Shown: positions 5,258 to 54,984 of the stretch, one piece after another | Layout: each line of letters begins with the position of its first letter | Numbering within the stretch: the stretch's first letter is position 1 | From: Pagrus major | Taxonomy: Eukaryota > Chordata > Actinopteri > Spariformes > Sparidae | Direction of reading: 5' to 3' | Length of the DNA stretch: 64,000 bases | Assembly: GCF_040436345.1 (NCBI RefSeq) | Contig: NC_133221.1 | Location: forward strand, 22,330,665-22,394,664 | Program-made: the position numbers and the translations under genes | The notes under the pieces: generated by a model | The model's input: the letters and a program-made list of their open reading frames with translations, nothing else | What the model was told of the DNA's origin: nothing | Databases searched by the model: none

Positions 5258-14190
<8,933 letters not shown>

Positions 14191-20403: not shown

Positions 20404-20827
20404 CAACTGTTTGATTGAAACTTTGTTGGTCTTTTGGAGGAGATGTGTAACATTATGCTGAAGGGAACCGTTAGAGGCAGGAGGCAGACCAGTCCACAGT
20501 TGCTTAGCAGCAGCCGTTAGCCGTTAGCGTCGGTTAAAACCGTCACTGACATGCATTGTTTCCGGGGGGCGCGTGCAGTCGTGGGGCCGTGCTGCTCTTG
20601 AACAGACCTCAGAGTTTCAGTCGCGGGTAAATTTCTACTCATACAGTGCAACGAGTTCCTTGACTGTCTCTGTAGTTCAGCGATTAACACAGATTTACTT
20701 CGGCATATGTTTTACAAGCTTTCTTTCTTGTGTCCCTGAAAAGACAGCTTGTTTTGTAGCTACTCCGGCTAACGTTAGCATTTGATAGCCCCGGTCTGCA
20801 TCTCGAGACGAGAGAGACAGAGGAGGG
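20404..20827 (+). promoter_or_regulatory. Putative promoter and 5' UTR of the Myb-hAT gene, with Myb-site cluster
   Basis: A GC-richer segment directly upstream of the first coding exon. Within 123 bases there are five strict matches to the vertebrate Myb recognition hexamer YAAC(G/T)G on either strand: CAACTG at 20404, CCGTTA at 20468, CAGTTG at 20497, CCGTTA at 20514 and CCGTTA at 20521. A near match CGGTTA lies at 20531. Transcription start and function are inferred, not shown. Confidence 0.4.
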
Positions 20828-23800
20828 ATGTCGCGCGGGTAAGTGTGGGGAACATTAACGTTCTTGGATGTTAAAAAAAAATATATATACATGTGTGTTT
20901 GTGTTGTACTCAGGGTGGAAACATCTCACAGGGTAATACTTTAAAAAGCAGTCATCGCTGCAAGTAGTAGTTATGTTGTGTGAGTGAGATGGTTGTTTCC
21001 TCTCCCGTGTCCTTTTAAAGCCGTTGTTCTGTTGTGTCACGGTAGGGAGCTGGGAAAGCTGGACCCTGCTGTATTTCAGAAGCAGTTGCACAAGCTGAAC
21101 TTTAGGTAGGCATTTCCGAGTTCCGCACTGTCATGTCAAGTAACTTTCAGCAACATTGAAATAATCATAAACACCTCACTTTCGCTTATAAAAAATGTTG
21201 TAAGGTGAGCAGGGTTGCTGCATTTGCGTATACGCGCCGCTAGAGGCGCACTACTTTCTGAACTAACAGTCAACGTTTCCTTCAAGCGTGTGCAAGGACC
21301 TGCTAGCCAAGTTTGCTAGCTTTAAGTTGCAGCCAAGTTGGCTTTATAAGTTTGTCTCTAATTCTTTAATCGCAGCAATTTTGTCTTGAGAGTTGCCAAA
21401 TGGACTGTTGAGATATGACGATTTGGCTAAACGCCTTTATGTCGTGGCAACTTACTTGGTTTTCAGCAGCTTATGTTGGCTGCTAAGCTAGCTCAGCTTT
21501 TCTGTGGGCAGTTAGCTAATGGTAGCTTGATGCTGTGGAGTACAACATTCATACTTGTTGAACAGGTTATGGGACAGGAAAGTAAAATACACAGGCTTTA
21601 TACACAAGGAAACGGTTACAAGTTAGCTAAGTAACAAAGTATGATATATCTTGTTTTTATATTTTATATTTTATGTCTTGCATGCCTTAGCTGTCATGGT
21701 AACTTTGTTCCTCTTGGCTTGAACAATTTCTCACATACCTACATCTTTGAACATGCCACATGAAAAGTGTCAAAAGTGTTGCTCTTTGTAAAGGATAGAC
21801 AACTCGTGCTTTGATCTGCCACTAAATCACCAATGGTGCTGAAATAGTTTTTCAGTCTTTGGATTACTTTAAATGTAGCATTTAAACACGCATGTTTGTT
21901 GTTGTTGTTGTTGTTGTCAGGAGATAAAAGAACATGAGGTTTAAAAATGTTTTGACATTTTCAGCTGGGACTTTGTTACAACACCAACACAATGAAAGTC
22001 AATATATATATTTGTTTAATTTATTAAAAATGACATTCAAAAACTCTACAGCATCATTATGAAGTCCACAACTACCATACCATATGTCCATATCCATGGA
22101 GACTTTGTATTCCACAATATCTAAATCTCTGTGTAGTGTCTTTTCACTCTTAATAAGCTCTCGATGCTGAAATCCAGTAATTCATGTTTTATCTTAATTT
22201 TTGGTTATCTCTGTGTTTGCAGCATGGAAGAAGCAGGAGATAGTAATCCGTGCATGGACACAGACTCGGACACAGCAGAAAAGAAGGATGGCACCAGGTG
22301 TTCTGTCAAATGGACCCAGGAAGAGGTGAGTGAAAAGAAGTCTTTAAAGTTACTGTTGTCTGTACAAAATAAGTATACTCATCTGACAACATAATCTGGA
22401 GCAACACACTATAATATCAAGTAGTTTATTATAAAGGTGTCAGTGACTGAAAAGTAATGCTGCATGCTAAGAAGAAGAGCCAACGGAAGCAGAGTTGTGA
22501 GCTAATGCTTAAGAAATTTTGAAGTTTCCAATGATTGGTTGGTTTGCTAGTTAACGTCAAAAGTAGCAACCCGTGTTCATGTTAATTCTGGACCTGAAAG
22601 CTGACCGTAAAGCTCACATTAAATTGTACTGTGTCTCTGAACCGATTTGTTGTTGTTGTGTGTAGGATGACAATTTAAAAATCCTGGTCAACAGCGTTGG
22701 AAAGAAAGACTGGAAAACCATTGCCAGCTTTTTACCAGTAAGTATGTGTATTGTGTCTATCATGCTGTGGAACTTGTAAAATCTCTGAACGCTTTCTAAT
22801 CTCTCCATGTTGAATTATTTAATCTTGGATAATAAAGGCATTTCCTATCACCATGACAGGGGCGTACAGAATTGCAGTGTATGCAACGCTGGAAAAAGCA
22901 CCTGGATCCTGAATTAATCAAAGGCTACTGGTCTAAAGAGGAAGATGAAAAGGTGAAAACAGAACATCTGATATAGACTTTTCTTAAACACAGTCTCTAG
23001 TTAATATTGTCCTATCTCATTTTGTACTCCTGTGTTTGCCAATGCCTTTGCTCTGACAGATAGTAGAGCTGGTGGGCAAGTACGGCACTGGACACTGGTC
23101 CTTGATTGCCAGGCACCTAAAGGGGCGGATGGGTAAACAGTGTCGTGAGCGTTGGCACAACCATCTCGATCCACTGGTCAAAAAGAGCTCCTGGACAGAA
23201 GAAGAAGACATCATTATCTACAAAGCCCACGCCATTTTTGGAAACCGGTGGGCTGAGATTGCCAAGCTGCTTCCTGGAAGGTGAGTTGGCAACCTTAACA
23301 TAACATTAACACTAGGGGTCATTGATTTGCTGAAATTTACCAGAGTGGATTAAAAGCAGTCAAATACATTATTTGTTTTTTATTTTTAAAATGAGTGGGT
23401 GAATGTAGAAACGTATCAGCCTGTTTTAAGCTAGGGATGACACTTTAATATATATTTTTAATTCTTCTTGCAGGACAGACAATTCTGTGAAAAATCACTG
23501 GAACAGCACCATCAGACGCAAAGCAGAGTTGGGCTTGTTCAAGGACGAAGCTGACAGCATTTCCCTTGATATTCAACAGTTTGTGGAAGGAGAGGTACAG
23601 CACTTATTGAGTTTAGCACAAACTGTGAAGGCTCACCATTTTCTGCTTTTACAGATTTCCACAATTTGAACAAAGGTTTTTGTTTTGTTTTGTCAAAGAT
23701 TACTCGGTTAACATTTTTGAATAGCTAGTATTAATTGAAATAGTTAATAGATTAGATATTGATTGTTTATTACTCGTCATAGGGACGAAGCAGGTAATAT

Positions 23801-24656
23801 GCCTGTTACTGTTCTAAAATGATGCAAAGGTAATGCTAAATGATACATATTATGATATTACCATCTGATCAGAAAGAAAGGGAAGAGCTTTGGTGTTTTT
23901 TTCCAATATTTTGCAGCAAAGATATTATTGTGCATTAACATTATATGTTGTGTTACAGGTCGACTTCAAGTGTGATGTTGTGTTAGACACTGAACCAGTA
24001 ATTCCTAAAGTGGTAAGTTTGCCATAGATGAATTTCCTTTATGAATCAGCTGTATTTTCTTTCAAACCTTTATCTAAGGAGAAACATTCAAATTGAACAG
24101 AGCTACGTCAGTTAAATTAGGAGTGGTCTTGGATGGATGACAAAAGAACATTTCTTAGATGCTTTTAGATTTTTTCCATGATGCATCGAGCTGCAGCTTG
24201 GTTTCACTCTTGTACTCTTTGCTTTACTACAGTTCAGGCCAGAGAAAGAGAAGAAACAGAAGGAGCCTCAGAAAGTCAAGCAGAGGGCGTCCATTCAGCT
24301 TCCACAGACTTCAACATCCAGGAGAGAGATCTCCTCCCCCAATCCCTCCTTGCCCCCTAGTTCGAGTTCCAGTCCCAACTCCAACTCAGGGGCTGCACCC
24401 GTAGTGGCACCGGTGGACCAGAAAAAGGTTGTCGACGCAGCACTGAGGATGATTGCTGAGGACATGCTGCCACTCAGGTGACTTGTAGTGTTAGTGGCTG
24501 TTACAGTGTTCATGTTGGGTCAGTGACCTGAGGATTAACAAACTGGGGTATTTTGACAACTTTGGACAAAGGGTTAGGGTGCTCTCATGAGTCTGCTGCA
24601 TGTGGATTATGTCATATAACCATCCAACATCTAATCACCAGTCTAGATCACACAGA

Positions 24657-24712
<56 letters not shown>

Positions 24713-27105
24713 TACACACCATCTGAAAATGTACAATGTCAATGGTTCTTTTCTTTGTTCCCCACAGTTTTGTTGAAGGCACAGGCTTCAGGTCATTCAT
24801 GAGTACCATCAGCCCTGAATACAACAAGCTATCTCAACGAGTCATGGGCCTACAGCTCTATGATGATGTGGAGAGAACCATCAAACCTCAGCTCATCCGT
24901 GACCTTAAAGCCTGCCTTGCCAAAACCAAAGATGGTAAGAGTGCCATCCATGTCACTTTAGACCTGTGGGCAGGTGATCCATCCCATCCAGTGGAGGAGC
25001 CCATTGTTGTCGTGCAGCTCCACTTTGTCAGTGATTCCTGGCAGATCCGCCGTCCCACTGTGGCGTTCCGTCACCTCAGCCACAAAAACCTCAGCACCAC
25101 TGTGGCCAGCGAGCTTGAAGGTGTGCTGCTGAGCTACGGCATCTTTCCTCACAGCATCGGCTACATCCTCGCCAACCAGGCCAAAGAAGCCCTGGCTGGG
25201 AACAACTTATTCTGCGACTACAAGATCATGTGCTCATCCAACAGGGGAGAACCGGATGGAGATGAGATAGTGGCATTTCTGTCAGACCAGATGACTGAAA
25301 CAGAATCCCCCTTTTCAGAGCTGCAGATTGGGACCAGGACCTCCTGTGTGGCCAACACACTGCAGCTTGTGATTAAGGAAGCGCTGAAGAACTCCAGGGT
25401 TGTGGAAAACCTGCTCCTGCAGGCCCACAACGTGGTGGCTTTCTTTAGGAGCAGTGCTTACTGGAGTGAGGTAGGAGAAAAAAATGGCTAAAAACTACTT
25501 GCAACTGTATTGTACACTGCATTACATTGGTTTTTGCAAAGACACATGATAAGGATGGATGATACCAAACTTCTTTTATTCGATATGATTTCAATACTTT
25601 TTGCCACAATTTTAACAATACTGATACAGATACTAATCATTTCTCATTAATTAGGTTTTGATGAAGGAGTGGAACGTGTCCCTATGCCCTTCCTCCAGTA
25701 GCTGTCGCTGGAACTCCATGATGGTATCTTTACGCCGCATGGTGCAGGAGTCCGCCTGGAGTGCAGTCATGACTGTCTTAGCTCAGGCTCGCATAGAGGC
25801 TAACGACACAGCCAGCGCACCGCCTCTGGTCATGGTCAAAAGGGAGCAAGTGATTGACATCCTGGGTCTCCTTGAACCGTTTGAGGAGGCCTTGCAGGTA
25901 ATAGAGAAAGTTAGAAAGAACTTCATTACGGATGTAGTTGATTATGATATTATTCATTGAATTGGCTGTTCTGAGTTGGGTACTTTGGATTACTGAAACT
26001 AAGCAAACAACAAAAAAAGATGAATCCATTAAAGTTGCAGCATGAATGTAGAATAATAGTAATGTGTGATTATTTGTAGACGATTATGTGAGATCATATT
26101 CTTTGAACCTCTTCTAACCCAGGTCCTGCAAGGAAACGGAGTGACCATCTCTATCATCATACCTTCCCTTGTTGGCCTTGATAAGACCTTGGAGAGCCTT
26201 GTCACTAACTACACACACTTCAGCAAGGCCCTGCGTACTGGCCTCCACACACACTTCCAGTCCCTGATCCACCAGAAGGACATGGTCTTAGCTGCTGTGC
26301 TTGACCCCAGGATCAAGCTCCAGGTACTGAGTTATGCCAGAAGCATGGCTGGTTTGTTTTGTCTGTTGGCGTCCTAAGAAGATCTCTGTGTCTCTATTGA
26401 GCTCTATGTTAACGTAGATCAAAGAAGAAAACAAAATGTATATCATACATAACCCACTTTCAGAATCAGAACTCTCACTCTGGCTTGAACTTTTCCTTCC
26501 AGCCATTTTCTGATGCCAAACAGCAGGACCAGACAGATATCCTCACACCCCCATCGAAGCATGAAGCTCGCGCCATCTTGGAAGCCTCATTAAGAAGCAT
26601 GGAGGCCTCAGCATCTCCCTCTGTAGAGGCAGATAAAGACCAGACAAGCACAGAGTTGACAAAGGACCAGAATGGTGAAGAGGAAAGCCAAGCCAATATG
26701 CTGATGGAGACATCTGGTGGCAGCTCAGATGACAACAACTTTGACGGAGTTGACGGAAACAACCTCAAGCGCAAGTCCATCTTTAACTTTCTCCAGCCGC
26801 CTGCAAAGAACATGAAGACGTCTGAGCTTGATGTTTACCTGTCAGAGCCACTGTGGGAAAGCAACTCCAGTGTGGTTTACTGGAAATCTGCTTCTCGGTT
26901 CCCCCAGCTCCAGAGCATCGCCAAGAAGCTGCTAGCAGTACCAGCCACCTCAGGGGGCTTCGACCGGCTATGTCCAATGGCAGCATGTATTGTAAGAGCC
27001 AAGAGGAACCGGCTGCCACCTCACACCACAGAGAGACTGCTTCTGTACAAAAACTCTTTAAAGGCAAAGACTGTTAAAAAGCCCAGTGGGGTTGCTAAAC
27101 ACTGA
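20828..27105 (+). CDS. B-Myb-like R1R2R3 DNA-binding region fused to a hAT transposase-derived domain
   Basis: Thirteen coding exons: 20828-20838, 21046-21105, 22223-22325, 22666-22737, 22860-22952, 23060-23280, 23474-23594, 23959-24012, 24233-24477, 24768-25470, 25655-25897, 26123-26323, 26503-27105. All introns are GT-AG and all phases match, giving 909 aa. Myb repeats carry the regular Trp spacing: R1 W54/W74/W93, R2 W106/W126/W145 with the conserved Cys141, R3 W158/W177/W196 ending TDNSVKNHWNS. The DTDSD acidic stretch before R1 is B-Myb-like, so the Myb half is probably MYBL2-derived. A Lys/Pro/Ser-rich linker (about 246-310) follows. From about 311 the protein resembles ZBED-type hAT transposases: VTLDLW (Asp392), a degenerate CVANTLQLV, CRWNSM, and a C-terminal dimerisation region (about 821-895, YLSEPLWE, SRFPQL, LLAVPATS, KRNRL). 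No BED zinc finger is present. The second catalytic Asp position appears as Asn463, so transposition is unlikely. Predicted role: nuclear DNA-binding regulator. A bad gene model is the main alternative. Confidence 0.85.
21895..21918. repeat. (TTG)n trinucleotide run
   Basis: About eight TTG units in intron 2 of the Myb-hAT gene. Confidence 0.8.
24656..24711. repeat. (ACGC)n tetranucleotide microsatellite
   Basis: About fourteen ACGC units, in the intron that separates the Myb-plus-linker exons from the first large hAT exon. It ends 56 bases before that exon's start. Confidence 0.9.
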
Positions 27106-28680
27106 TCGTTCAGGTGACAATTGATTCTGACTATTCTGTCCTCCATCCAAAATATCCTCCACCCTTGCTTTTCCCTACTTGTCACATTGCATTAAACAGA
27201 AACTCAGCACCATCATCTAATATAAAATGCACTTTTAAACCCATGTGACACCCATCTCCAACTTGATGTCCCTTGATGACATTTCTTTGAACATTAAATT
27301 AAACTCACTGAATTTAGCCTCATTTCTACCCAGAGCTGCAACGATTAATCAATTAGTTTCTTCACTCTTCTCTGACATTAAATCGAATATTTAGGGTTGA
27401 GGACAAGAGACATTTGAGGAAGTCATCATGGGCTTTGGGAAACACTGATCAAAAATATACTTCAAATATATTAAATATGAGCACAATGGCAGCCACCGTC
27501 ATAGAGCTCAAACTGTTGTTATTTGTCTGGGGATTTTTGGTTCAGATGACTGTTATTGTTTAGTGAAAGGCAGATTATCTTTGCCCTTCACACAAAGCAG
27601 CTACACTTCTTGTTTTTGAGTATAAACACTTTTTTAATTCAAAGATTTAAAAATGTAATCTGAAGTGTGAATTAAGATGACTTCGAAAAAGGCTGAACAG
27701 AGGTTTTATGTTTTTCTTTGTAGTTGCCACTACCTTCTCAGAAGAAGGTAATGGCAGGAGAAAAAGAAGCAGTTGTGGTCAAAGTCCAAAATTTTCTGAC
27801 TGACTTGTACTGGTTGTGATAAAACTCTGTCTCAATGTCACTGAAATATAAAAAAAAACAGCGATAGTGGGTATTCAGTGCCTAAAGCAAAAATTTAAGT
27901 GACTGAAAATGTAAAGCTTTGGAAGGTAATTTGTTTCCTTTTCTTGTAATTTATTTGTTTTGTATGCTGTACACTTAAGTGCAGATGGACTGCGTGTTGG
28001 GTCGCTTAACAGTGAATGAAATAAGACTCTGCACCTTTTCAGCTTTTTGTAAAAGCTGTGTTTATTTTATTAGTCTATAACAATTTGTTTATATTTTTCA
28101 TTTTTACTGGTCAGTGATGCTTTACAGTTGATAAATGTCAAGAGCCTTGATGATTAATCGGCTCTTAAATTGATTGATTTAACAGATTATAATGGCGGTT
28201 GATGCTTATTCTACATTTTAGTTTGACTTTATTAGACAGCTAAGCTTTTAAACAAACTGAAGTTCACGATGATTGTTCATATTGTGGTGATAAACACAGA
28301 TGGGAACTTGAGTCCTTTGAGCTGTTGTCTCCACGTGGAAATATCCAGAGAATGTACTTTTATTAAAGAATAAAGCTATTTTTCTGTACAGATTTCTTTA
28401 TCTGTGGCTCAAAGTTTTCATGTCAATCTGTCTTTTTTAACTATCTGGGTTAGAATAAAATTAATATTGTGATCAGCTGCGAGCTGACTTTGTAAAGTGA
28501 AGAAGGATGGACATTATAGTGTTAAGAGTAGTTTATCCTGAGCACCCCAAACAGAGAAGATAAGGAAGAATAACAGCTACCGAAAAAAAATTAGGCCTTG
28601 AACTGAAATACATGAAAACACGTTACCAATGTTTATAAAATGGCGGTGACGTTGCTGTAATTTAAATGTTATAAAAGTAA
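27106..28680 (+). other. 3' UTR of the Myb-hAT gene and intergenic DNA
   Basis: AT-rich, without coding sequence. AATAAA at 28369-28374 is a good candidate polyadenylation signal, implying a 3' UTR of about 1.3 kb. A truncated repeat copy starts at about 27333. Confidence 0.5.
27333..27460. repeat. Truncated 'AGCTGCAACGATTAATC' repeat
   Basis: Begins with 'agctgcaacgattaatcaat' and includes 'gggctttgggaaacactgat', internal words of a teleost inverted-repeat element. Fuller copies are at 50332-50930 and 59290-59599. This copy lacks the right terminus. Confidence 0.6.
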
Positions 28681-31600
<2,920 letters not shown>

Positions 31601-33670: not shown

Positions 33671-36399
33671 TGTACCTCAATAATGGTAAAGTAAAGTCAA
33701 AGCTCTGTATTTGTAACACCGTTTTATTGAGCTAAGTGTGATGGACACAGTGGTCATTCATACTGTATTTTCATGTAAGCTCAGTCAGGCCTGGTTATTG
33801 ATTCTTACATCCAGCTGTTAATGTCTGTGTCCTCCACAGAGCTGCAGATACTCAACACAAGCATTAAGAAATGCTCTCACGCTACAAACACACACAGACA
33901 CAGGTCCCAGTGTGGCTCAGATCAGAGTTTTTGAGGCTGATGTGCTGTGACAGTCTAATGGTATCGACCGCAGTGTCAGCCGCTCACCTGGAATAATGTG
34001 CAGAGAGACACAGAGAGCTCTTCTCATCCAACCAGCTTTTCTCATCAGTTCACAAGCTTTCCAGGCTTTTTGTCATTCTTACAATAGCCTGATCATCAAA
34101 ACACATTTCTTATCTCCTGCATCCTTCAAAAATGAAAAACCTGTGCAGAATTTGAGCGATATTTAGCATATCAATAATAGATAATACTACTAAGTGCTAG
34201 CTACAGTAACAAGGCATGGCTAAATTAAAATGTTTGTAATTATAATTTTTTATGACCCTTTGTCTGATCTGTAGCTGAAGTCCAGATCCTCCGGGAATGA
34301 CAGCCCAGCTCTGCAGAGTCTGACCAAATTCGTGCCAAGACCCGGACCAATGGATCGCAAGGTGAGCTGCGGACAGATGTCACACTCAGCCTGCTGTATT
34401 TTACAGTGAGAGCAGTTTATCCACCAGAGAGCAGTGTGTGTCTTTAGAAAGAACCAGGACCTTTCCTCACTGGTCTACTGAACAAATGTAAAGCTACACA
34501 GAAATCTCTTTGTGGTGTTCAGTCTTAAAAGACTCCCACTATGTCTTTTGTTTTATGAGGTCTTTACTTAACAATTCCCAAGTTTCAACTTCACATCACA
34601 CGTGTTTTTATCTCTGGTTTCATGATTGTTCTGTCAACACAGTATCCATCCAAAATGTTGTAAATGCACGCACTGTACAGGATTTTTTGTATCTACAGTA
34701 TCAACAATTTACAAAGATCATGTTCCATTAAATGATTTAGGTCGTCAGATTTACAGCTAAACACAGAAAATGTGTGCATGTGGTATTGGTACAATATCAG
34801 CATATTGACAGGTGGATTTTCCCACTGGAAAATGAACCCGTATGTATGTTGGTCTCAATTTCTTTAAAAAAAAAAAAAAAAAATCTAATGAATCCAAATC
34901 AAGATTGTGTGATTTTTACACCCAAACATCAATATTTGTATCAGCCACAGAAATCCAGTGTCAATCAGGTTATAGTTTGATATTGTTTAGCATTGTATGT
35001 TTGTGTTGGTGTGTGCTGAGAGACTGGAAATTTAGGTGGAATGAAACTTGAATGGGTTTCATGTTGGTATGTTTAAAGGGCCAGAGTGAGTTTTACTGTA
35101 GAAACCAGAAACGGGCTGAAGTGTATCTGTGTGTGTGTCTCAGGTGGTGGAGAAGGCACTGCAGCGCTCCATGAACCGCATGCAGGTGGACAGTCTGGAC
35201 TGTGTGCAGTTCCACTGGTGGGACTACAGAGACAAGAGATATCTGGAAGCACTCGGACACCTGTCCGACCTGCAACAGGAGGGACTTATACGTATGTAGT
35301 ACTATACACAGTATAAACTGTTAACGTATAATGATAAACCACACTGTAAGATTAGGAGACGACAATAACTCAGCACACCCGGACACTTTATGTTCCATTT
35401 ATATCAAGTTAAAGACACAATGATATCGTCAGAACAATATATGAGTGGGCTGATTTTGGCTCATCACAGATATATCAGTATATTGGTATATTCAGTATGT
35501 TGGCTGTATGTTGATGTTTAATAGGCTGCGTGTTAATGTAGACCTCAACCAGGGAGTGGTAATTTGACAAAATCAGATTAACTCAAGGTCCACTTTCTGG
35601 CTTTTTCCTTGCTAACTGCATCTCATCATCTTCATCAGCTGTTAGTCATTATTAATATTAACAAAAGACCCACTTACTTGGTGTTTCTAAAGCTTTTAAC
35701 AACATATCAGCTACAGCAACTGTATGCACTAAGGACGACCATAAGGCGTCTGTGAAAGCCTCAGAAACACCAACAAAGTGGACCTTGTGTTGAGAATTTA
35801 TTTTCTGACAAGCTGCCGTTTCCACTGTCAAAATTGAATGTTCAGGCTCGATTTATTTGAATTATTATTGGATTGGATCAAATAATTGGGTTTTTATTTT
35901 TACTCTGAGAAGGTTTTAAGTTCTCCCATGTTTTCCCTTTTGTCCCTCAGGAGAGCTCTCCCTCACTAACTTTGACACACAGAGGCTAGAGGAGATCACC
36001 AACAGAGGCATCCGCATCTCAAGCAACCAGGTAACACCTCCACCTGCTTCAGATTCCCATGATTCCTCTCTCCACCTTCATCAGTGTGGCTGTTAACTGT
36101 GTACTGTATTGTAATTGTGTGTCGTGCAGGTTCAGTAATCTGTGATTGACCAGCGACCTGTAGCGAAGATGGAGCACTTCTGTCTGGCAAACAACATTCA
36201 GCTCCTCACTTACGGCACTCTGGGTGAGACACAACACATCATTTTAGATTCAGTCATTCTATATTCATGTGTTTATTGTTTGCATTAGTTAAAAACATGA
36301 GCAGTTTAAAATGTTTACTTCCTGTTTGATATAAGCAGCACATTTACCATCATGGTGTAAAGATGTAAAATGGTGGACTTCTAAAATGGAGTCAGTCGA

Positions 36400-36720
36400 C
36401 GTGATGACACACCCTCCTTTTACTTTACTCCTTCCTCTCCATCCGTCTCTGCATCACATCCTCCTTCCGACCTCAACGCCCTCCATCTCTGCCCTCTTTT
36501 TCCTCCACTGCTTCTCCCCTCCCTTCTTGTTTTTTCTCTCTACCATCTCTCACTACACCCGCTTCCTCCTCTCCATCCTTCTCCATCTCATCAATGCTCT
36601 TCTTCCATCCCTTTATTCCTGGCACCTCCTTTTCTTCCTTCCACTTCTCCTCTCACTCCATCTTCCTCGCCATTTTTAACTCCTTCGTCTCTCTCTCCTT
36701 TCTCCTCCATCACTCTCTCA
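36400..36720 (+). repeat. Long polypyrimidine tract before the last exon of the aldo/keto reductase
   Basis: About 300 bases of almost pure C/T on the sense strand, running up to the acceptor at 36722. The 97-codon ORF over it is compositional. It acts at least as an over-long polypyrimidine tract for the 3' splice site. Confidence 0.7.
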
Positions 36721-38025
36721 GCTGGCGGTCTACTCTCAGAGCGTTATCTGGGAAAGGTGGAGCCAAGTTCCAGGGCGGAGCTCAACACTGCCTCCCTCTC
36801 TAAGTACAAGAACATGATCGACACTTGGGGTGGCTGGAGCCTTTTTCAGGACCTCCTTGTCGCCTTGGAGACCGCTGCCAAGAAACACGACTGCTCAGTG
36901 GCTAGCGTGGCGACGCGTTACGTGTTGGATCGCCCTGCGGTGGGCGGGGTCATCGTGGGATGTCGACTAGGCGTCGCAGGGGCGGGGCAACACATCAGCG
37001 ACAGTCTGCATAGCTGCAGCCCTGACCTGAAGCTGCTGCAGGAAGATCTCGCAGCCATCGAAGCAGTGACACGCCGCTCGAAGGACCTCACGGCACTCAT
37101 CGGGGACTGCGGGGATGAATACAGGAGCTAGAGGGGGAGGGCAGGGCGGGGAGGACTGACTGACTGGATGTGACAGATGGGGTGATGAGGAGGAGGAAAC
37201 CTCTCACGAAGAGCAGCCCCACAGTGGAAAAGAATAAAATGCACTTCCTGATGAAATTCAGTTCAAATTTCCAATAGAATTTTTTGCCACTTTTGCTGAT
37301 TTTGATCCATATTAGTTTCTGCACACAAAGACTGAAGCAGCTGTTCTGTTAAACATACTCAGTAACTTTTTAACATACCTGCTCCTTTAATGCAACTTCT
37401 ACAGATTGTATGTGTAGGTGTTTTTATGTCATATTTGATAATATTAAACAGATTGAATACTTTTCTCCTGCAGTGCGTTCTCACACTGCTTTAGTGCTTG
37501 AATACAGAGATGCACAAACACACAGTCATCAGTGTTAACATTTGAGTGTCTAGTTATTCTGTTAGTAGCAGAATAAAGAGAAATCTCAGTGTTGCTTTTT
37601 CAGTTGTTAGCTTGTACTATATAATAAATATAATACTATTTTTTGTGTATAATAACATGGTGTCTGATAAATGGGATTGAGAGCTTTTTTCTGTTGCTCG
37701 TTGAATTAAAACCACCTTTAAGGAGTGTGTTGTGAAGGTAAATAAAACTTTTTTCATCATTTTGCCATTTTTCTGTTCGCTGGTAGCTTGAAAAAGCAGG
37801 ACATTGTTCCTGGAAAGAGATGTTGCTGTCGAGTTATTCTCATGTCACTTGTCTCTGTATTTATCACTATTGGCCCAAATGTCTCAGCAGCAGATATTTC
37901 TAATAAAAAAATAAATATTTATTTTGAAATTTAGATGTATTGAACATTTACATTGATATCATAACAGAACGTACTGTACATTGGTATTCCTTTGTGTCTG
38001 AGAAACTGGCCATGAGGTATATTTT

Positions 38026-43300: not shown

Positions 43301-46300
43301 ACCTTTCTTCAGCTGTTCAGCAGCGGCGAGAGCCTCGTGGAGGGTCACTCCTGCACCGATCACAGTCACATGGTCATCATTGGTTTTGTACACAACCTGA
43401 GTGGGATGGGAAGATACATTTGTATGTGCACACAGACTAGTCATTTGTGGTAATGATAGTAAGAAATCAAATGAGGAAAATAGGAGCATGAATTGTTTGG
43501 TGTGGGAAAATGATGACCAACCTTAGCCTGACCAACATGGAAGTCCTCATTGGAGTTGTAGATGACGTTGTTCTCTGGGCGGCTCGTTCGGATGAAACAC
43601 AAACCCTGAAAAAACAAAACAAAAACAGAAATGATCTTCATGGTTCTGTACTTTTTAACAAAAAAACCCCAAAAAACTGTGGGAGATTGGATCCCATACA
43701 ACTAGTGTTGTAAATTGTCTCATTTGTAATTTAATATTGATGCTATTGTGTTTAACACACAACTATGAACTTTACCTAACTTGTAAGATCAGTTAATTGG
43801 ATCATTTAATTATTTTAAGTTTTAAATTATTATTTTAATTCATTAAAGCCCTGATGTAGAGAAAATGTTTTCAAAAAAAGAAAAGCTAGCCCCCCCAAAA
43901 AGGAAAAGTTGCAACTCATTGTCAGTGTCATGTTATAGAATTGATATATTTATGTTTAAAAAGGTACAATATGTACAAATTTTAGTTGAAAACATTAAAA
44001 AATGGATTAAAATAATCAACAGAATGTGAAGAATTAGAAGTTTTGACGTCATGACTTCTATGCATTGTGTTGTTGAGATATCTACTGGAGTTAGCACACT
44101 AACCTGCTTGCCTAATGTGTACATTTTTCCCTGTGGTATCGAAATATGGTGTAGAATACAGAAATTTGTCAATACTACATTCAACTGAATATGAATATAT
44201 CTAGCTTTTGTGCTGCTCTAAACCTCCAGAATTTTCCTATCCAGGAACTATTTTGTTGTTATCTTTAATTTGTTATTACAGGTGACTGTAGGTACCTTTG
44301 TGTTGGCAGCAAGCTCCACAGCTTTCTCAGTGGAGACTCCGTCGCTGGGGTAGAAGACGGTTGCAGTGGGGATGGCTCTAAACATGGCCAGATCCTCCAG
44401 ACCCATCTGAGAGGGTCCATCCTCACCTAAATATGCACACACATCAACATGAAACAGACAAAACTCAGGTTGAGTAACACCCACATGTTTGCTGTAGACT
44501 GGAGAAATAAATTCTGGTAAGACTGGCATGCATTCAGTCTGGAAGAGGTGGGCATGCAATGTACCTGCAGAGGTGGAGGAGAAGGAGAGAGGGGAGGAGG
44601 AGGTGAAAGAGAATCAGGCCGCTCTGTCATCACCTCCATGACACAGAGAGACAGGGAGGGGGAGGAAGAGGAGGAGGAGTGCTGATACCAGGAGAGGAAG
44701 ATGGACAACAGAATAACGGAGTAGGTGAGAAGATGTAGGGGAAAAAAGGTTTTTAGGATTCAGTAAAATTAAAACCAGGACATAGAGAGGAGAGGTTCAA
44801 CCCACTGCAGTGAGATTACAGAAGCAACAACATGAAGTCAAATAATCGAGAATGAAATATCTTTCAGAGACGGCTTGTTCAACTATTAAAGATTAGCTTT
44901 GGCTGGTTCATCTGACATGCATTGAGGACATTTAATATTCTTCAGTGGGCTGAATCAATCCAAAAGGCAAGCCAAAGTGGATTTAAGAAAAAGGTGTAGT
45001 GAGAGGAAAGGCGGGTCACAGTGAAGATCATAATGAGTGCAGCTACTTCATATTATGGGTCAAAGGTAGTGAAGCCGTGATTAGTTTCAATTAAAAGAGC
45101 AGTTGAGCTTATTAGAACATTTTAGAAGAATTACAAGTTATAAACACCAGTTACAGCGGCAACCACACAAGATTGTTCACAGTTATGAGTTACAGTTAAC
45201 ATAACTGCATAAATGTACCATATAACAATGATACCAACAAGATGTTGTTGGGGGGAGAAATTCAGAAGATATAAACAGACTTTAAAATCAACCACTGAAA
45301 GGTCAGAGGTCAGTCCATTCAGGTCATGACTGATGAAAGGAGAGACGGGAACTGACCAATAGAAACTCCACAGTGGGAGCCGCAGAGGTTGACGTTGCTC
45401 TCAGAGATGGCGGCCATGCGGAGCTGGTCGTAGGCCCGGCTGAAGAAGGTGGCGAAGGTGCTGGCAAACACCACGTTACGGTCCCGCACAGCACAACCTA
45501 TCGCCACGCTCACCTGCAGGATAGAGGAGAAACAAGAGGGCTGGCTCAGAAACACTGCATTTAACACAGAAAGAAAACATTTTTTTACATGTAAAATGAT
45601 TTGGGTATTTTTATTTGTTTATCAAGAGAGAGGCAGGTAAAGTGGGCAAGGTGGAATGAGGGGAAAACATCTACTACTGTGATGTACAATAGCACCTGAA
45701 CATCTCATCATTCTAACAAAGCAGAACCAGGACTTTATAGTTTGTACTCCGCTATCACTATTCTAGTAATCCCTGGACTTTTCCTCTAGCAGCACCTTGT
45801 GTTTGACATTTTTGTTTTTTAGTGAAATGTCTAAATAACTGTTGCCATGAAATTTGCTTTACGTCTTCAAGTCCCTTCCAGGAACAGTTTGGTGATTCTG
45901 TAACATTTCATCTACAGTATCACCAACATCAGGTCAAAATTTCATTTTGTCTAAACTTTAAAAATGCTTTAAAAATTAATCACACAACTTATATGGAGAA
46001 GAGAAAAATTCTGAAGAGGTCACAACCACAACACCTGTATTATAAAAGGTCTTAATGTAAGTTTTTTGGCCTGTGGCCAGTTGTTCTACTACAAGTGTTG
46101 CTGGAGTTTTGACCTAGTAAAACTAATACTGGTGGCAATTAGCAAATGTTTGAACGTTAACTAATGTGGAGCATATGGTAAACATTAAACCTGCTTGCAT
46201 CAGCATTTTATTATTGTCAGCGTTTAGCTCAAAGTTCAGCCATGAGTGTAGCTGTAGCCTCTTAGTCTCGTGTAAATACGTCCTCAAAAACAAAGACTAT

Positions 46301-49300
46301 TCTATATGTTGTACATCTGCTATTTACTCATTCATGGTGCTTAGAATTAAAGATTTCTTTATGATGTGATCCACCGTGAAGGGGAATTTTAACCAGCAGA
46401 AAATATGTAACATTTTTTAATTGAGAATGCAAATATCAGGATGAATACAATTCTTTTTACTCATTCAAACTATCCCCACTGCAGCACGAGAAGGACCTTT
46501 CATTAGTATAGTATTAATCAGCACACAGTGAGCCCTTCCTGTTATTAAAAACCCCTGAAAGGCCCACAGAGCACAAACACATGATGACACTCATATTTCA
46601 TTATGAGGCAGATATTTAATCCACACAGACGATGACCCGTTTTGATCGGCCTGCTGTTGTGTGGGAGGACCCTTCAAGGATTCATCGCGATGCTGATGTA
46701 AATAAAACTGGGACATGAACACGAGAGGAATGCCGTTAATGCTGCTCAATGGATGATGATGCAACAGCAAAACCACTAACCAATGCAGTTACACCTAAAG
46801 TAAACAGTGACACAGCAAAGGATTAAAGATCAGAGGGGAGAGAAATGGATGCTAATACTTATGATTTAAAATGGACTTGACTTGTTGATTATTGTCAAAA
46901 GAACCAAGTATTGCAGTTGTTTGCCGTTTTTAGTGACACTTTACTTTCATATACTTCTTCACAGTCTGGAAAGTGGTTCAGAACCTCTGCAGACATCTAA
47001 CCGGAGAACTAACGTCTATTTCTTACCATGTTCTGCTCTGCGATGTAGCACTCCACGTAGCGGTTGGGGTGTTCGTTCTTAAAGAGCTCAGAGAAGGTGG
47101 AGTTCTTGGTGTCTCCATCCAGAGCCACCACATGGTCATTGTAACGGCCCAGCTTGGCCAGAGCCATGCCGTACGCCTTCCTTGTAGCAATCTGGTTACA
47201 CAGAGACAAACAGACAACCAATCAATTAACTACGATCGATACAAAACAGATTGTTTATGAACATATAATAGATAACCAAGCAAGGTGTGCTGACTCAAAA
47301 CGTCTGAGCTTGTCTGCCTCCACCGATCATACCTTGTCTCCAGGTTTGTAACTGGGTGCACTTGGCATGCGGATGTTGCGGAGGCTGACAGGTGACGCGT
47401 CCTCATTGGGCGGGGCAGGATAGATGCGCTTGTTACAGCTGACGATGCGGCTCTGCAGCTCCTTCATCACGCTGTCGGCCATGTCTTTGGGCAGGGGTTT
47501 GCCGTGCCAGCCCATCTTATCCTCAGCAGCTGAAAAAGACACAAACACAGACACAAAAAGACACGACTGAGGACAGGAGCAAACAGGTACAGCTGCTATT
47601 GTACAGTGTAATACATGACAATCAGAGGGGAAGTTATAAACTTTTTAGTTACGAGTTAAATAACAGACATTTTCACTGTTTTTGTATAAACTGTGCATGT
47701 GTAATATTGCACGAGTCAAAATTTTGGACCCACCTAAACATATAAACCGAATTCCTGCACACATCCTGCATACTTATCTCTACATACATGTGCTATTTAA
47801 AACATGTATGCAATAAGCCATTGGTCAGCTGTCATACTCATAACAACTGTCCACTTCAGTGGGTCACAAAAGGCAAGTTCAATGGTAAAAAGGTCAGAAT
47901 CCAGAGGCCCCAGGGTTATAACAACACTGACACAGCCTTATTAACACAAAGACACACTCCTCCATACACACACACACACCTTGCTCTTACAACAACTGTC
48001 TTTTTACCTTTCACCAACACACGTGGTCACACACACTCCCCCTCAGAGTTATCACAACACGGGCACAATGGGATGCTGCTGCGAGTGTTTCCTACACATT
48101 CTGAGGGATTACAGAGCAGCAGCAGCTAAAGCACTAAAGCGTTGCCTGGATTACAGCGAGTTAGGGCCTCTGCTCTGATGAAGGGTCCCCGGGGCCGTAA
48201 AGAAAGCTTCTGACGCGAATGCTATTCTCAGCAAGTTGTCACCATTTTACCTTGTCAGGCTTTTGGTGCAATAAAAGCAGGATGTCACATAATAATGACA
48301 GAATTATTGCACAAATCTACACTATACAGGAACTTTTGAGTACTTCTTTATAAGGGCACTATGTTGTTTTTTGGTGAATAAATTCAACCCCAGAATCTTC
48401 ATATTTACAATATTAATGAGGAAATAATGTAAACTTTTGGTCCATAACTGAATAAACAAGCTGTTCTCAGAGGAAAATAAGGTCCCCAGAAAACTGTTTG
48501 AAGCTAGAAAGGTGGCAGGGTCCGCCAACTGTGTTGTCCTTTAAGGGTCAGTTTGTTTATTCAGTTTATTCAATCATGACAACAAAGAATTTGTTTATTT
48601 AGTTTGTTTAGGCATAAAAATAAATCAGTCAGGGCAGATCTTTCTCTTCTGATTAAAATGTCTTCCCCCAAAAATAGTGCACCTTTAAACCAAAAGGAAA
48701 CACAACATGTTAGAACTTCACTTAAACTCCACACAGGATAAACTGCCTCACATACTGTGGATCACTGTGTGTTTGTTGTGATTGTGATTGTGATTGTTGT
48801 ACCTGGGATGCCCTTGCCCTTGATAGTCTTGGCGATGACAGCAAGTGGCTGATGGCGGGGCTGACTCAGCACCTTACACAGCTCCTCCACACTGTGGCCG
48901 TCCACAATGATGGACTGCCAGCTGGGAAAACAGAGGAGATCAAACTTTAAATGCAGTGCTACAGGCGCGTCTCGCTATGAATTCTGGGCCCCTGAATGAA
49001 TGAAACTCTGGAAACTGTTTTTTTTCAGTGCCCTGAATATGTTTCCCTCTCAGCCACCCACCCTCCCTTCTCCTCACACCCTCACCCTCCTACTTCCCCC
49101 TTGCTCACCCAAAGGCCTCACAGCGTCGCTGGTACTTCTCCACATGGTGCTGCAGTGGCGCGGGATCGCTCTGAGCCAGGCGGTTGATGTCCAAGATGGC
49201 CACCAGGTTGTCTAGCTGGTAGTATGAGGCGAAGGCCATGGCCTCCCACACGGAGCCCTCGGACATCTCTCCATCACCCAGCAGGCAGAACACCCGATAG

Positions 49301-50974
49301 CTGCACAGAGAGAGAGATTTTATGTTTAAGTAAACGTGTAAAGACAGATTGATCGACAGAGACAAATGGATACTGGAGCAGCTTATTTTCTATATCAGCC
49401 CGATTTTCCCTTTTGCAACATCCTCCCCATCCTTTGATTCCTCCTATAAGGCTCAATGTGACAGCTGACCCTCACACCTACAACACACACACACACACAC
49501 CTACACACACACACACACACACAAGCACGCAGACACACACTCCACCCTCCCGCTGCGCTCTGATCACCCTCAGTCGTTGCTCCCAGGGCGTAACAACTCC
49601 TGACAGCTTTCCAGTCAAATAGACACATTCTCATTAAAGCTGGAAGATAGGCCGAGACACGCCGCATTACACCACGCATTCCAACCTCGAGCCCAAAGAA
49701 AAAACACACGGCAGAGAGAGAACAGAGAGGAGGAAGGAAAGAAAGAGAAGAGAGGAATTCCACACAGAGGTGGAGACGGAGAGAGGGAGAGAAAAGAAGA
49801 AGAGATTTGAGACTGGAGGGGGGGAGAATAAATGCTACCAGTTAAACTGATCTGTAAACCCTGCAGGTCAGGTTCTGAAATATGTCTGCTCCTCTGAAAA
49901 CTATCCATAATAATATACAGATGCATTGAAGCAAATCTGGAAAAAGTACCAGCTTGTGTTCATTATGAATTGAGTTAATCCTGCCTAAAGAAACTGCAGA
50001 ATCAGGAATGCAAGGCTCCTCTCTGTTCATCTGCATCTTATCCAACTTAACATATCTGAGGGACATACAGTATAAAAACACATCAAAAGAAACAGTGAAA
50101 ATGACAAAGTTTAGGTCATTTTCAGGTCTGTTTAAACGCTAACGCTTTCTTTTCACATTTTTTACTAAATATAGAATACCTGCCCTTTAGCATTTCATTT
50201 TTACTTGTACATTTATGCACATGTTTATGAAGAAGATGTTTCAGTAACTGTGTTAAACACAAAGTAATTTTAGTATCACAGGTAAAAGTTGCAGATTGTG
50301 ATAAACCTGCACGTTCCCTCAAAGGTGATTAGAGCTGCAAGGATTAGATGATTAATTGATTCGTTGACCGAAAGAAAATTAGTTGCCAACTATTTTGATA
50401 AATGGTAAATCATTTCAGTCAGTTATTAGGCAAAAATGCCAAACATCTGCTGGTTCCAGCTGCGTAAATGTAAGGATTCGCTGCTTTTCTTTGTCACTGA
50501 TGAAAGTAAATGAAGAGTCTTTGGGTTTTGGACTGTTGGTTGGACAAAAAAGCAATTTGAAGACGAGACTTTGGGCTCCGGGAAATTGTGATGAGCAAAT
50601 GTAATGGTGGGCCATGGGCCAAAAGCAAACACCTAGTGCATTGTATTGTGAAAATACAAATGGTCCTGTGCCAAGTGTCCGCCCTTCTCAGATCATGACA
50701 AATAATAGTAATTAATCATAATAATAATGGGGATCCTAAATATTTGAAGTGCATTTTACCTCACAAAAATTTATTTATATGATTTTTTATTTTATTTACT
50801 TTTTTCCTCTCTAGAAACACATGCTGGGCCATATTGAACCTTATAGCCGCACATTTGGCAGCCCTGGACTAAAAGATTAATCATGATAACAAGCAGATCG
50901 ATAATTAAAATAATAATTAGTTGCAGCCCGTAAGGTGATACCAACACTGATCAAGAGTAAAGTGATGCTACTGA

Positions 50975-51057
<83 letters not shown>

Positions 51058-54000
51058 AAGGGCATCCAATACAGCTACAGCAGGTGGAGGCAGTTTTTGA
51101 GCTACAGAAGTAAAGTAATCCCCCCGGAGGTGTGAGGTGTGCGTGCTTCTTTGCAGGCTGAGAGCAACAGATCAAGACAAGGTGATACCTCTCCTTGAAA
51201 ATGGCCAAAACCCTTCCAACTGGCACACACACAAACATGCACACACCTACCTCATACCTACTTGTGTCACCCGCACCATTACACCCTGCCAACTCAAAAC
51301 CAACGAAGAAGAAGAAGCTTCCAGTCGATACACTTGGTGCTGAGCTGCATGCTGAACAAGCATGAGGAGGAACGCTGCATGTGTTTGATCCAATAATCTC
51401 ATCTTTACATGTTTACTGAGTATTGAACCAGAGTCTCATACGCATGGATCCATGAACTGCGTCAGTTATTCAGTCTCGTCTCAGTGCTGCTGATAAATGT
51501 ATCTGACGGGTTCATTCATGTATTATATTTTAATAAAACACACCCTCAGAGAGGCTGAGGGTGTGTTTGGTTGTTTGTAGGATTCATTTCCTGCTATAAT
51601 TTGACCACTAATAGACAATAAATATGATATATTCCATTATTTTATGAGTGGTTGATACAGCACCATTCAGCAGTTTTTTGTTATTATGTTATGAAACTGG
51701 TGATGCAGCCTTCTACGTGAGTCGTTATGTTGCAGCGAATTAGTTTGACAAGCTGCTCTGAGCATCGCAGGGGAAACACATGCGCCCTTCTGCATGCACA
51801 AACAATTACATGCATGGTGAAAATGACATTATCTACCGTGTATATATAGATGCAACAGACACACAGCCGTGGATTTTGACATTTTTCGGAGAGAAGATGG
51901 GGGTAAAGGGCGAGGCAAAAAGATGAGGGGGGACTGTGCTCTTGCATGTGTGATTATTAGAGCAGAAACAATCGAGTGCACACAGAATGCAGAGTGAGAG
52001 ATATCAAGGGCAGCCAACTCAGGCTGCAAGTACGCCGTTCCCCGACTGCCTGTTTCAGTGCGTCTGTTGTGTGTAAAAACAACAAAATTGCCTATGAGAC
52101 GATCTCCCACCATTCTGTCCTTTCAGAAATGTGTTCCTGAAATTCAGAGTTCAGCTCGGATGCTTTTGTGTCATATCCATGTTCTGTGAAAATGTGAATA
52201 GGAATGTGTTGCATCTCGCTTTCTCTATTGTTAGACTGAAATCCATGTAGCTCTTTCTAGATCACACTAGAGACTGACCCTGCTCACATTTCAGGCCTGT
52301 TAATCTATTGTGATACAAACACGTTTACAGCTGCAGGACTGTGCACAAAAACAAATTAATCTCAACCTCCGCATTTGGATTTCACCTTTGTGAAGAGACA
52401 CATTAATCCCCATCACTGATTTCTGTAACCAAACTCGTTTCTGAGCAGATGCCCTCGTTCATCCAGATCTGAAGGTGAAACTGATCAGAGGTCAGCTCTC
52501 CTGGCTCTCCTGGAGTGGCTGCCCAAATGTCAACCCAGACCAAGCCTGTCAGGTACAGTTTGATGCAAAGCTGCAGGCTGAAATGTCACATGTCAGCACG
52601 GCTCGCTGCGGCGTACATTATGTCATGCATAATTTCATACCGTCTACCTTAATATGTGCAGATGCAAGCTGAGCCGCTGCGCTGCTTCATGTGTGTTTTG
52701 TGCATGTTGAGGAGTCGCTGCATGAGGTCGTTTTCTTTTATCAGGGACATTTTCTGTGTGTATGCGTGTGTTTGTGTGTGTTTTTGTCTGTTTTTGTGTG
52801 TGTTACCTGGCCTTGTCAAAGTATTTTCCAGTGTAGGCCATTCCACAGGCAGCTCCAAGCCCCTGACCCAAAGATCCAGTGGCCACATCCACAAACTGCT
52901 GCTTCTGTTAGCACACACACACACACACACCAAACATGCATCTTACTCTAAACTCAAGTTTGCAAACACAAAAAGCATGAAGAAGTCATGTTGTCAGGAC
53001 AGTGGCTGCAGTATCCGGGTTTATGTGAACACAGTGTGTCATTAATGTCTGCAGCAGAGGAGAAAGGAGCCGAGGACGGAGCATCTCTGTCACACAAACA
53101 CATCTTTGTCCCTGTGTTCCGGCCTGCATACAGTTTGTCTGTTATGTGTGTATTCATGAATGTGCAGCGAGTGGAACACGCGTTCTGCTCTAAAGTATTT
53201 TAGAGGGAAAAGACAAAGATTACAAAGAGGCTGGAACACATAAGCCTATTTATTTTTATTTATTTTACACTATTCTGTTCATCATAGTCAGATGAAACTC
53301 GTTTGGATGGTCTCATCCTGCTGCTGCATTTTTATAATGTAGTGTGAGAAATATTCAAAGTGTTTCTAGCTGGGAGATGGAGACTATCCTATAATCTATC
53401 CTGCTGACAGGAACATTTTGAATGGCTGCATCCAGTGACATATATTTCCTTGGTCACGTCATATTAATATTTTAAGATTCTTAGATGCTGTCAAAAGGTT
53501 TGCCCAAAGCCTAAATAAGCTCTAAGAAGGTAAAGTCTGACAGATAGCTACATGCAGGAAGTGACTAGAAGCAAAGTCAAGCTTAACCTGAAGCATAAAA
53601 GGTTATGGTATGATGTTTGAGTGGGTAAAAGATACCATTAAACAGCTCAGGGAACTGTCCTTAAGTCAGATCATTCATGTTTATCATAAGTTTATTTACT
53701 GTGAAACTTTCATTAAAATACCCAAAATCAACACACAGAATGGTGGTGTCAGATTTACTCACCGGCACAGGGTGTCCCTCCAGGATGGAGTCGACCTTGC
53801 GGAGGTTGAGGAGCTCGTTCTCCTTCAGATAGCCCGTCTCCGCCCACACGGCGTACAGCACAGGGGCTGCATGACCCTGAGGAGGCGCAGGTGAAAGAAA
53901 GAGGTTAGAGTGTGACACAATTTATTGTTTAACTGATCTGCTAGAAATGCTGAAATGGTTTAGAAAACCCTCATCAATCCTTGGAGCTTTAAGATCCTAT

Positions 54001-54984
54001 TTTTATGTCTCTAATCTATGTTTTTCCTCTGTTTTTCCCCTTCCTGTAATTACCTTTCCTGCACACCTGAAAAAAGAGTTTCCTGCTTAATAAATATTAG
54101 AGAACAAAAAATAAAAATACAAGTCTGGAATTCGCAACTGGCATCTTCTAGATGTCAATTCAGGAGTAAAATCACAGTTAAACATGGGTGAAAAATATAA
54201 TACCATGTGAGCAGGTGGGTAAGGATGCTGAAATAGTGTGCAGAGAAAAAAAAAACCACACTCTCAGGAGCTTCATACATCAAGGCACTGCTCATTACTC
54301 CTTACTATTTGTCTGCACGGGCCTGCTTGCAGATATTGGAGATACTTAAATAACATTTTCCAGTCAAGTTTGAAACTCATCTCAGAGCTCATTTATCAGA
54401 AATCCGTCAACTGCACAACTTTAATTTTGTGGCACATGCAATTTTTTAAAAATATGTGTCTCCTTATAGTTAGTAAGTGAGTTGTCTTCGATGTCCTCTG
54501 CACGTGTAGGTGTTACCTTGGAGAGGACGAAGCGGTCGTTGTTGGGGTTACGGGGGTCTTCAGGTCGGTACTTCATGGTATGAAAGAACAGCACAGACAT
54601 GATCTCTGCCGCGCTGCAACATGATGTGGGATGACTGGAACAAAACGATGGGAGAGAGCAATCAGACACAAAGCAATCAGATTTAAAAAACTGATGTGCC
54701 TCTGGATTCCTTAGCTCAAATCTGTAAGGATGTGTCAGAGCAAACTGTTCACACACAGATGCAGAGGAGGAGGGAGAACAGAGAGACAAAGTGACTCTGT
54801 CACTTTAAATGTAGTGGGTTAAATCATGCCAGACCAACTGTAGTCAGAGAGTTATGTAAGACAGAAAGTAAGCAGGCTGAGTTTATTAGGGTCCAGGCAG
54901 TCAGTAAGTACATACACTGTACATTATCTCTCTCTCTTACAACACACACTCATAAAGAAGTCTGCTCTCTCTCATACATGTGCG

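Follow-up and report, generated by a model that had tools for sequence, protein, structure and literature searches.

Evidence for a Myb-hAT fusion gene in Pagrus major joining MYBL2-type Myb repeats to a transposase with altered catalytic positions

The locus described here lies in a 64,000-nucleotide stretch of the Pagrus major genome (RefSeq assembly GCF_040436345.1, contig NC_133221.1, positions 22,330,665 to 22,394,664 of the forward strand), which we call the window and whose first letter is position 1. At 20828-27105, on the plus strand, a gene model joins three Myb repeats (R1, R2 and R3) to the body of a hAT transposase, and the host and transposase domains share one open frame, as in a host-transposase fusion. 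The model was rebuilt from the genomic DNA of the window, and its product and junctions are known from sequence alone. It has 13 exons, 12 of 12 introns with GT-AG borders, compatible phases and a coding sequence of 2730 nt, which specifies 909 residues and ends with a TGA stop codon at 27103-27105. The parts of the gene are the following.

20500-20999, no strand: CpG-rich stretch (CpG observed/expected 0.97), likely promoter of the Myb-hAT gene
20828-20838 and 21046-21105, plus strand: exons 1 and 2, start codon and short N-terminus, placed by phase, splice signals and the CpG-rich start region
22223-22325, 22666-22737, 22860-22952, 23060-23280 and 23474-23594, plus strand: exons 3 to 7, acidic MYBL2-like segment and R1, R2 and R3, based on Pfam, PDB, introns and tree
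23959-24012, plus strand: exon 8, linker, placed by phase and splice signals
24233-24477, plus strand: exon 9, remaining linker and then the start of the hAT homology (residue ~310-318), with the motif MIAEDM-LPLSFVEGTGF running into exon 10
24768-25470, plus strand: exon 10, first part of the hAT body, with D392 kept and N463 changed; single copy at the DNA level
25655-25897 and 26123-26323, plus strand: exons 11 and 12, middle of the hAT body, with RWNS, PSLV and LDPR motifs
26503-27105, plus strand: exon 13, hAT C-terminal dimerisation region (817-893), D863 at the catalytic Glu position and the stop codon, based on Pfam, the Hermes match and the alignment
27191-27303, plus strand: ATTAAA hexamers at 27191, 27293 and 27298, possible poly(A) signals after the stop

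Exons 1 and 2 are the least certain part of the model; exon 2 (60 nt) has phase 2 at both ends, and its skipping would keep the frame. Intron 9 contains a CACG tandem repeat (24651-24722).

In the 909-residue product, Pfam identified Myb_DNA-binding in three stretches (E 8.2e-53), and the best relative of solved structure, by sequence, was c-Myb R1R2R3 (residues 52-203; E 5.4e-71). These results bear out the original prediction, which had read from the window 13 exons with GT-AG introns and compatible phases, a 909-residue open reading frame and three Myb repeats at residues 50-205. When the genome was searched (785.9 Mb in 25 contigs, labelled C6, C7 and so on, with C7 carrying the fusion), 13 Myb exon matches were found at five places: the fusion on C7, and C6, C22, C19 and C21. 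Compared by eye in the readable exons, the introns within the Myb repeats lie at the same codons as in the other Myb genes of the genome. Since these intron places are shared, the Myb half appears to descend from a genomic copy, and a retro-copied origin is ruled out.

A Myb tree of 7 rows and 156 columns grouped the fusion with B-MYB (PDB 1a5j) and the C6 gene (support 97/95), the C6 gene being its nearest relative (94/91). Identity of the Myb repeats was 114/157 to the C6 gene, 65/85 to 1a5j and 105/152 to c-MYB (1h88), and 103/149, 101/149 and 76/124 to the genes on C22, C19 and C21, the first two of which we labelled MYB and MYBL1 by eye. An acidic DTDSD segment before R1, also seen by eye, is common to the fusion and the C6 gene. 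Judged by these comparisons, the Myb half is of the MYBL2 (B-Myb) type rather than A-Myb or c-Myb. The six matches to Cmyb_C in the genome fell on C6 (two), C19 (three) and C22 (one), with none at the fusion on C7 or at C21; by this measure the fusion is without a recognisable Myb C-terminal domain. The fifth gene with Myb repeats (L051, C21:30754740-30754973) is divergent, and its introns hold long minisatellites and a run of N.

The other half carries a Dimer_Tnp_hAT domain at residues 817-893 (E 1.1e-8; 35.2 bits against the Pfam cut-off of 21.4). Among solved structures, again compared by sequence, the Hermes transposase matched residues 816-894 or 807-894 with E 9.5e-11 to 1.5e-10. Furthermore, conserved hAT motifs continue in frame across junctions 9/10, 10/11, 11/12 and 12/13. 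At the DNA level, the genome has a single copy of exon 10. With exons 10-12 (383 residues) as query, the best match elsewhere had 26% identity over residues 1-366 (E 2.8e-18 to 5.7e-15); the best-scoring places were near-identical hAT copies on C11, C12 and C8, and some short stretches were 29-35% identical. In a comparison with 19 stretches of the genome, L041 (21.7% over 603) and L053 (22.8% over 434) aligned best with the fusion, while L042, a ZBED4-like stretch with two BED fingers, scored below both. By these matches, the half is a descendant of the hAT superfamily. At the four junctions of the hAT part, L053 and L041 have uninterrupted frames, and the introns were therefore either a later gain or inherited from a different hAT lineage. 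L053 (4095-6080), L054 (4712-6331) and L055 (4871-5869) are near-identical copies of a hAT element that was apparently active recently, and the long frame of L053 seems to hold an unspliced intron near the C-terminus.

The catalytic triad (DDE) is not intact in the fusion, with two of the three acids changed. At the second position the fusion reads ANQ (N463), where all five relatives with letters there have a D-N pair. The position of the catalytic Glu is occupied by Asp (D863), compared to Glu in 6/6 relatives, and the His of the C-x-x-H motif, kept in 7/7 relatives, is replaced by Asn. The first position is Asp in five of the six well-aligned relatives and Ser in L042. No zf-BED match was obtained with Pfam, and because the linker (residues 206-317) contains a single Cys and no His, the BED finger must be gone. 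Since this finger and two of the three catalytic acids are lost, the transposase half should, as far as its residues tell, no longer cut or move DNA. The half had originally been described as a domesticated, ZBED-type hAT transposase with a dimerisation region. The hAT body and the dimerisation region stand, with Pfam and Hermes matches, and domestication is well supported by the single copy and the replaced catalytic residues. Membership in the ZBED family was rejected because there is no BED finger.

The two halves lie close together, with a gap of 220 bp between exon 8 (ending at 24012) and exon 9 (starting at 24233). After the peak at the start of the gene, CpG observed/expected peaked next at 28500-28999 (1.17), before the NSUN5 exon. 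No promoter-like peak was present between the halves: windows over 23750-24999 gave 0.31-0.60, and the higher of these values are partly due to the CACG repeat of intron 9. In the scanned stretch (20500-29000), poly(A)-type hexamers occurred within introns at 22023, 22618, 22831, 23349 and 26028, and, past the stop codon, at 27191, 27293 and beyond, with no AATAAA or ATTAAA between 23355 and 26027. In the frame of exon 9, no ATG precedes the M of MIAEDM, which itself is already within the hAT homology. A single gene is favoured because of the short gap and because CpG peak, hexamer and usable start are all missing between the halves. On these grounds, one transcription unit appears much likelier than two, and the Myb and hAT exons very probably constitute one fused gene. 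Alternatively, two adjacent genes could be present: a mybl2 duplicate cut short behind exon 7 or 8, followed by a domesticated hAT gene in its own right. Reading through exon 7 or exon 8 does run into a stop codon, a remote first exon for the hAT part is conceivable (for example, within a Myb intron), and the purely genomic basis of the model suits this arrangement as well. Against it stand the signals missing between the halves, their distance of just 220 bp and the agreement of the exon phases, and we judge it improbable.

We also analyzed whether the frame of the single fused gene could be open by chance. When the bases of the 592-codon hAT part were shuffled 2000 times, no version remained open. 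In a neutral simulation, which ignored insertions and deletions, the frame was open in 608, 102, 6 and 0 of 2000 runs at 0.02, 0.05, 0.1 and 0.2 substitutions per site, the actual divergence since capture not being fixed. If the hAT half is far from its source, selection must therefore have kept the frame open. A decaying duplicate without function would be in line with the long branch of the Myb half and with a gene read from the genome. However, 909 codons are open, and at the two higher substitution levels the hAT part hardly ever survived in the simulation. We consider such decay very improbable.

The genome is rich in hAT elements, with at least 150 copies: 150 of 1151 candidates were scored, and 150/150 were above the cut-off. 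This abundance would suit a mobile hAT element that acquired Myb exons and is still moving. However, exon 10 is single copy, the catalytic positions are replaced and the gene neighbourhood is retained. Over 23595-27600, no convincing terminal inverted repeats of at least 12 nt frame the hAT part; shorter ones would escape this search. Two inverted pairs of at least 12 nt were present there (15 nt at 87% and 12 nt at 100%), each with one arm in exon 10 or intron 12 and its partner downstream of the stop codon, and neither therefore frames the hAT part. We rejected the mobile-element explanation, which is largely refuted and deserves next to no credence. Relatives were also sought in viral, prokaryotic and plasmid collections, which have no bearing on fish orthologues: 3 pattern matches in viral_contigs (12 in a second scan) and 35 in genome_contigs yielded 0 confirmed relatives, and the plasmids gave no match. 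The Myb-hAT gene is best read, from its sequence, as an immobile host-transposase fusion.

The following genes were found around the fusion in the window.

7855-13808, plus strand: SGK-type kinase exons (Pfam; protein kinase domain in 1 of 3 gene pieces scanned)
28985-29944, plus strand: NSUN5 methyltransferase exon (NSUN5_N, E 4.1e-37)
36385-37131, plus strand: aldo/keto reductase (Pfam)
44248-54804, minus strand: transketolase exons (Pfam; some exons by eye)

Directly upstream of the window, MBT repeats lie at C7:22323260-22327427 (five of 45 genome-wide matches), and the order on C7 is MBT repeats, SGK-type kinase, fusion, NSUN5. We take the kinase to be SGK and the MBT gene to be L3MBTL1, in which case the neighbourhood would resemble the human gene order L3MBTL1-SGK2-IFT52-MYBL2. 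The strongest SGK matches were at four places (C7, C22, C19 and C16), and three of them lie near a Myb gene, at 7 kb on C7, 119 kb on C22 and 15 kb on C19. At least two such links within 125 kb were obtained in 0 of 200,000 random placements, with a limit that was chosen after the distances had been seen and a placement model that ignores chromosomes and the shared descent of blocks. The linkage of SGK and Myb genes on three chromosomes looks ancient. No SGK or MBT match was among those listed within 125 kb of the C6 Myb gene; C6 has MBT matches and one weak SGK match approximately 3.9 Mb from it, and a neighbour of the C6 gene resembles RPN2 by eye. In the simplest history, the genes on C6 and C7 are the two mybl2 copies left by the duplication of the fish genome, and the one on C7 acquired its transposase where it stands.

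Taken together, a mybl2 duplicate fused to an inactive hAT transposase would have become a dimerising Myb protein and a rival of B-Myb. We regard this proposal as a whole as moderately probable and infer its later steps, among them how and when the capture took place. Probably left over from the fish whole-genome duplication, a second mybl2 (B-Myb) copy would have remained beside the MBT- and SGK-type genes and retained its promoter and the exons through the third Myb repeat. By splicing, it would have acquired a hAT transposase that replaced its own C-terminal half, and this transposase would have lost the BED finger and two of the three catalytic acids, and with them cutting and moving.

Myb sites have the sequence AACNG, and the C-terminus of B-Myb binds the MuvB complex. 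Because the recognition helices of R2 and R3 resemble those of c-Myb and B-Myb, the fusion likely still binds Myb sites. The hAT C-terminus would hold two or more chains together, so that a pair of Myb or B-Myb target sites would carry a dimer; lacking the B-Myb C-terminus, the fusion would not recruit MuvB, and it would compete with B-Myb or redirect it. According to passages of one paper (PMC6179265), human ZBED1 self-associates via its C-terminal hAT domain, and this is needed for its DNA binding; by the same reasoning, the fusion would be a Myb protein that acts as a dimer. If the fusion is real, competition with B-Myb is our first choice for its role, though with slightly less than an even chance. 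As the main rival to this role, the same fused gene could encode an independent regulator that works apart from B-Myb targets, whether as activator, as repressor or by silencing hAT elements. Regulatory roles are frequent among domesticated transposases in the relevant parts of two papers (PMC3606216, PMC8616336), and hAT copies abound in this genome. However, without the transposon-binding BED finger, element ends are unlikely targets, and the recognition helices are Myb-like; we find an independent role doubtful.

Several observations weigh against the proposed fusion and its history. The hAT-like_RNase-H match at residues 649-709 is suggestive and below the cut-off (E 0.041; 14.6 bits against 27), and the first catalytic Asp (D392) is retained. 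Read-through of exon 7 or 8 may give a short Myb-only product. In the small 7-row tree, the fusion (like C21) is a long branch according to a warning of the program, and the fusion is known from the genome of one species.

In summary, the Myb-hAT gene is real as sequence and probably one gene; the likeliest reading of its sequence is a domesticated host-transposase fusion in which the usual division of labour is inverted. From the host comes a DNA-binding domain that has been studied in depth, and from the transposase, it appears, assembly; in the usual tetrapod case, as passages of a review describe it (PMC8616336), the DNA-binding part comes from the transposase. Because of this split between host and transposase parts, target choice and multimer state could be separated in vitro. 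If the gene is conserved in fishes, a cell-cycle regulator would have gained a relative that is probably unable to recruit the usual partner complex, which would be a natural test of the contribution of the B-Myb C-terminus. Tentatively, a mybl2 duplicate in the fish lineage may have permanently given up the half that binds MuvB and received in exchange an inactive transposase that dimerises, with Myb repeats replacing the finger; such a built-in rival of Myb-MuvB could be shared by many fishes.

Like MYBL2, the fusion has three Myb repeats, DTDSD before R1, the same intron places and SGK-type and MBT neighbours (as in the human order), but its locus is without Cmyb_C and holds a hAT transposase body in its place. 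With ZBED1/DREF, ZBED4 and ZBED6 it shares a single-copy domesticated hAT body and the C-terminal dimerisation region; unlike these proteins, it has no BED finger, two of its three DDE positions are changed, and it carries Myb repeats. Passages of one paper describe the ZBED genes as hAT genes that were domesticated and that carry BED fingers and a DDE triad conserved across ZBEDs (PMC3606216), whereas the ZBED4-like L042 of this genome has Ser at the first position. Among active hAT transposases, Hermes matches the C-terminal region of the fusion (E ~1e-10); the fusion differs from such transposases in its missing BED finger, its changed catalytic residues and the lack of convincing terminal repeats of at least 12 nt.

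No Myb-hAT animal gene was among the full-text literature matches listed, a search largely outside subscription papers, including the survey of Cosby et al. 2021. In the matching passages of a metazoan survey, Myb is mentioned only as the MADF/PIF type (PMC10027918). The gene may already bear an automatic name in a fish genome annotation. In tetrapods, 106 host-transposase fusions from 94 events mostly join transposase DNA-binding domains to host domains such as KRAB, SCAN or SET, as excerpts of one review state (PMC8616336), and such fusions are an established kind. As in KRABINER and SETMAR, splicing links a host domain in frame with a transposase. In fusions of that type, the DNA-binding domain of the transposase is mostly retained next to an effector domain from the host (excerpts of PMC8616336), while in Myb-hAT the DNA-binding domain comes from the host and that of the transposase is missing.

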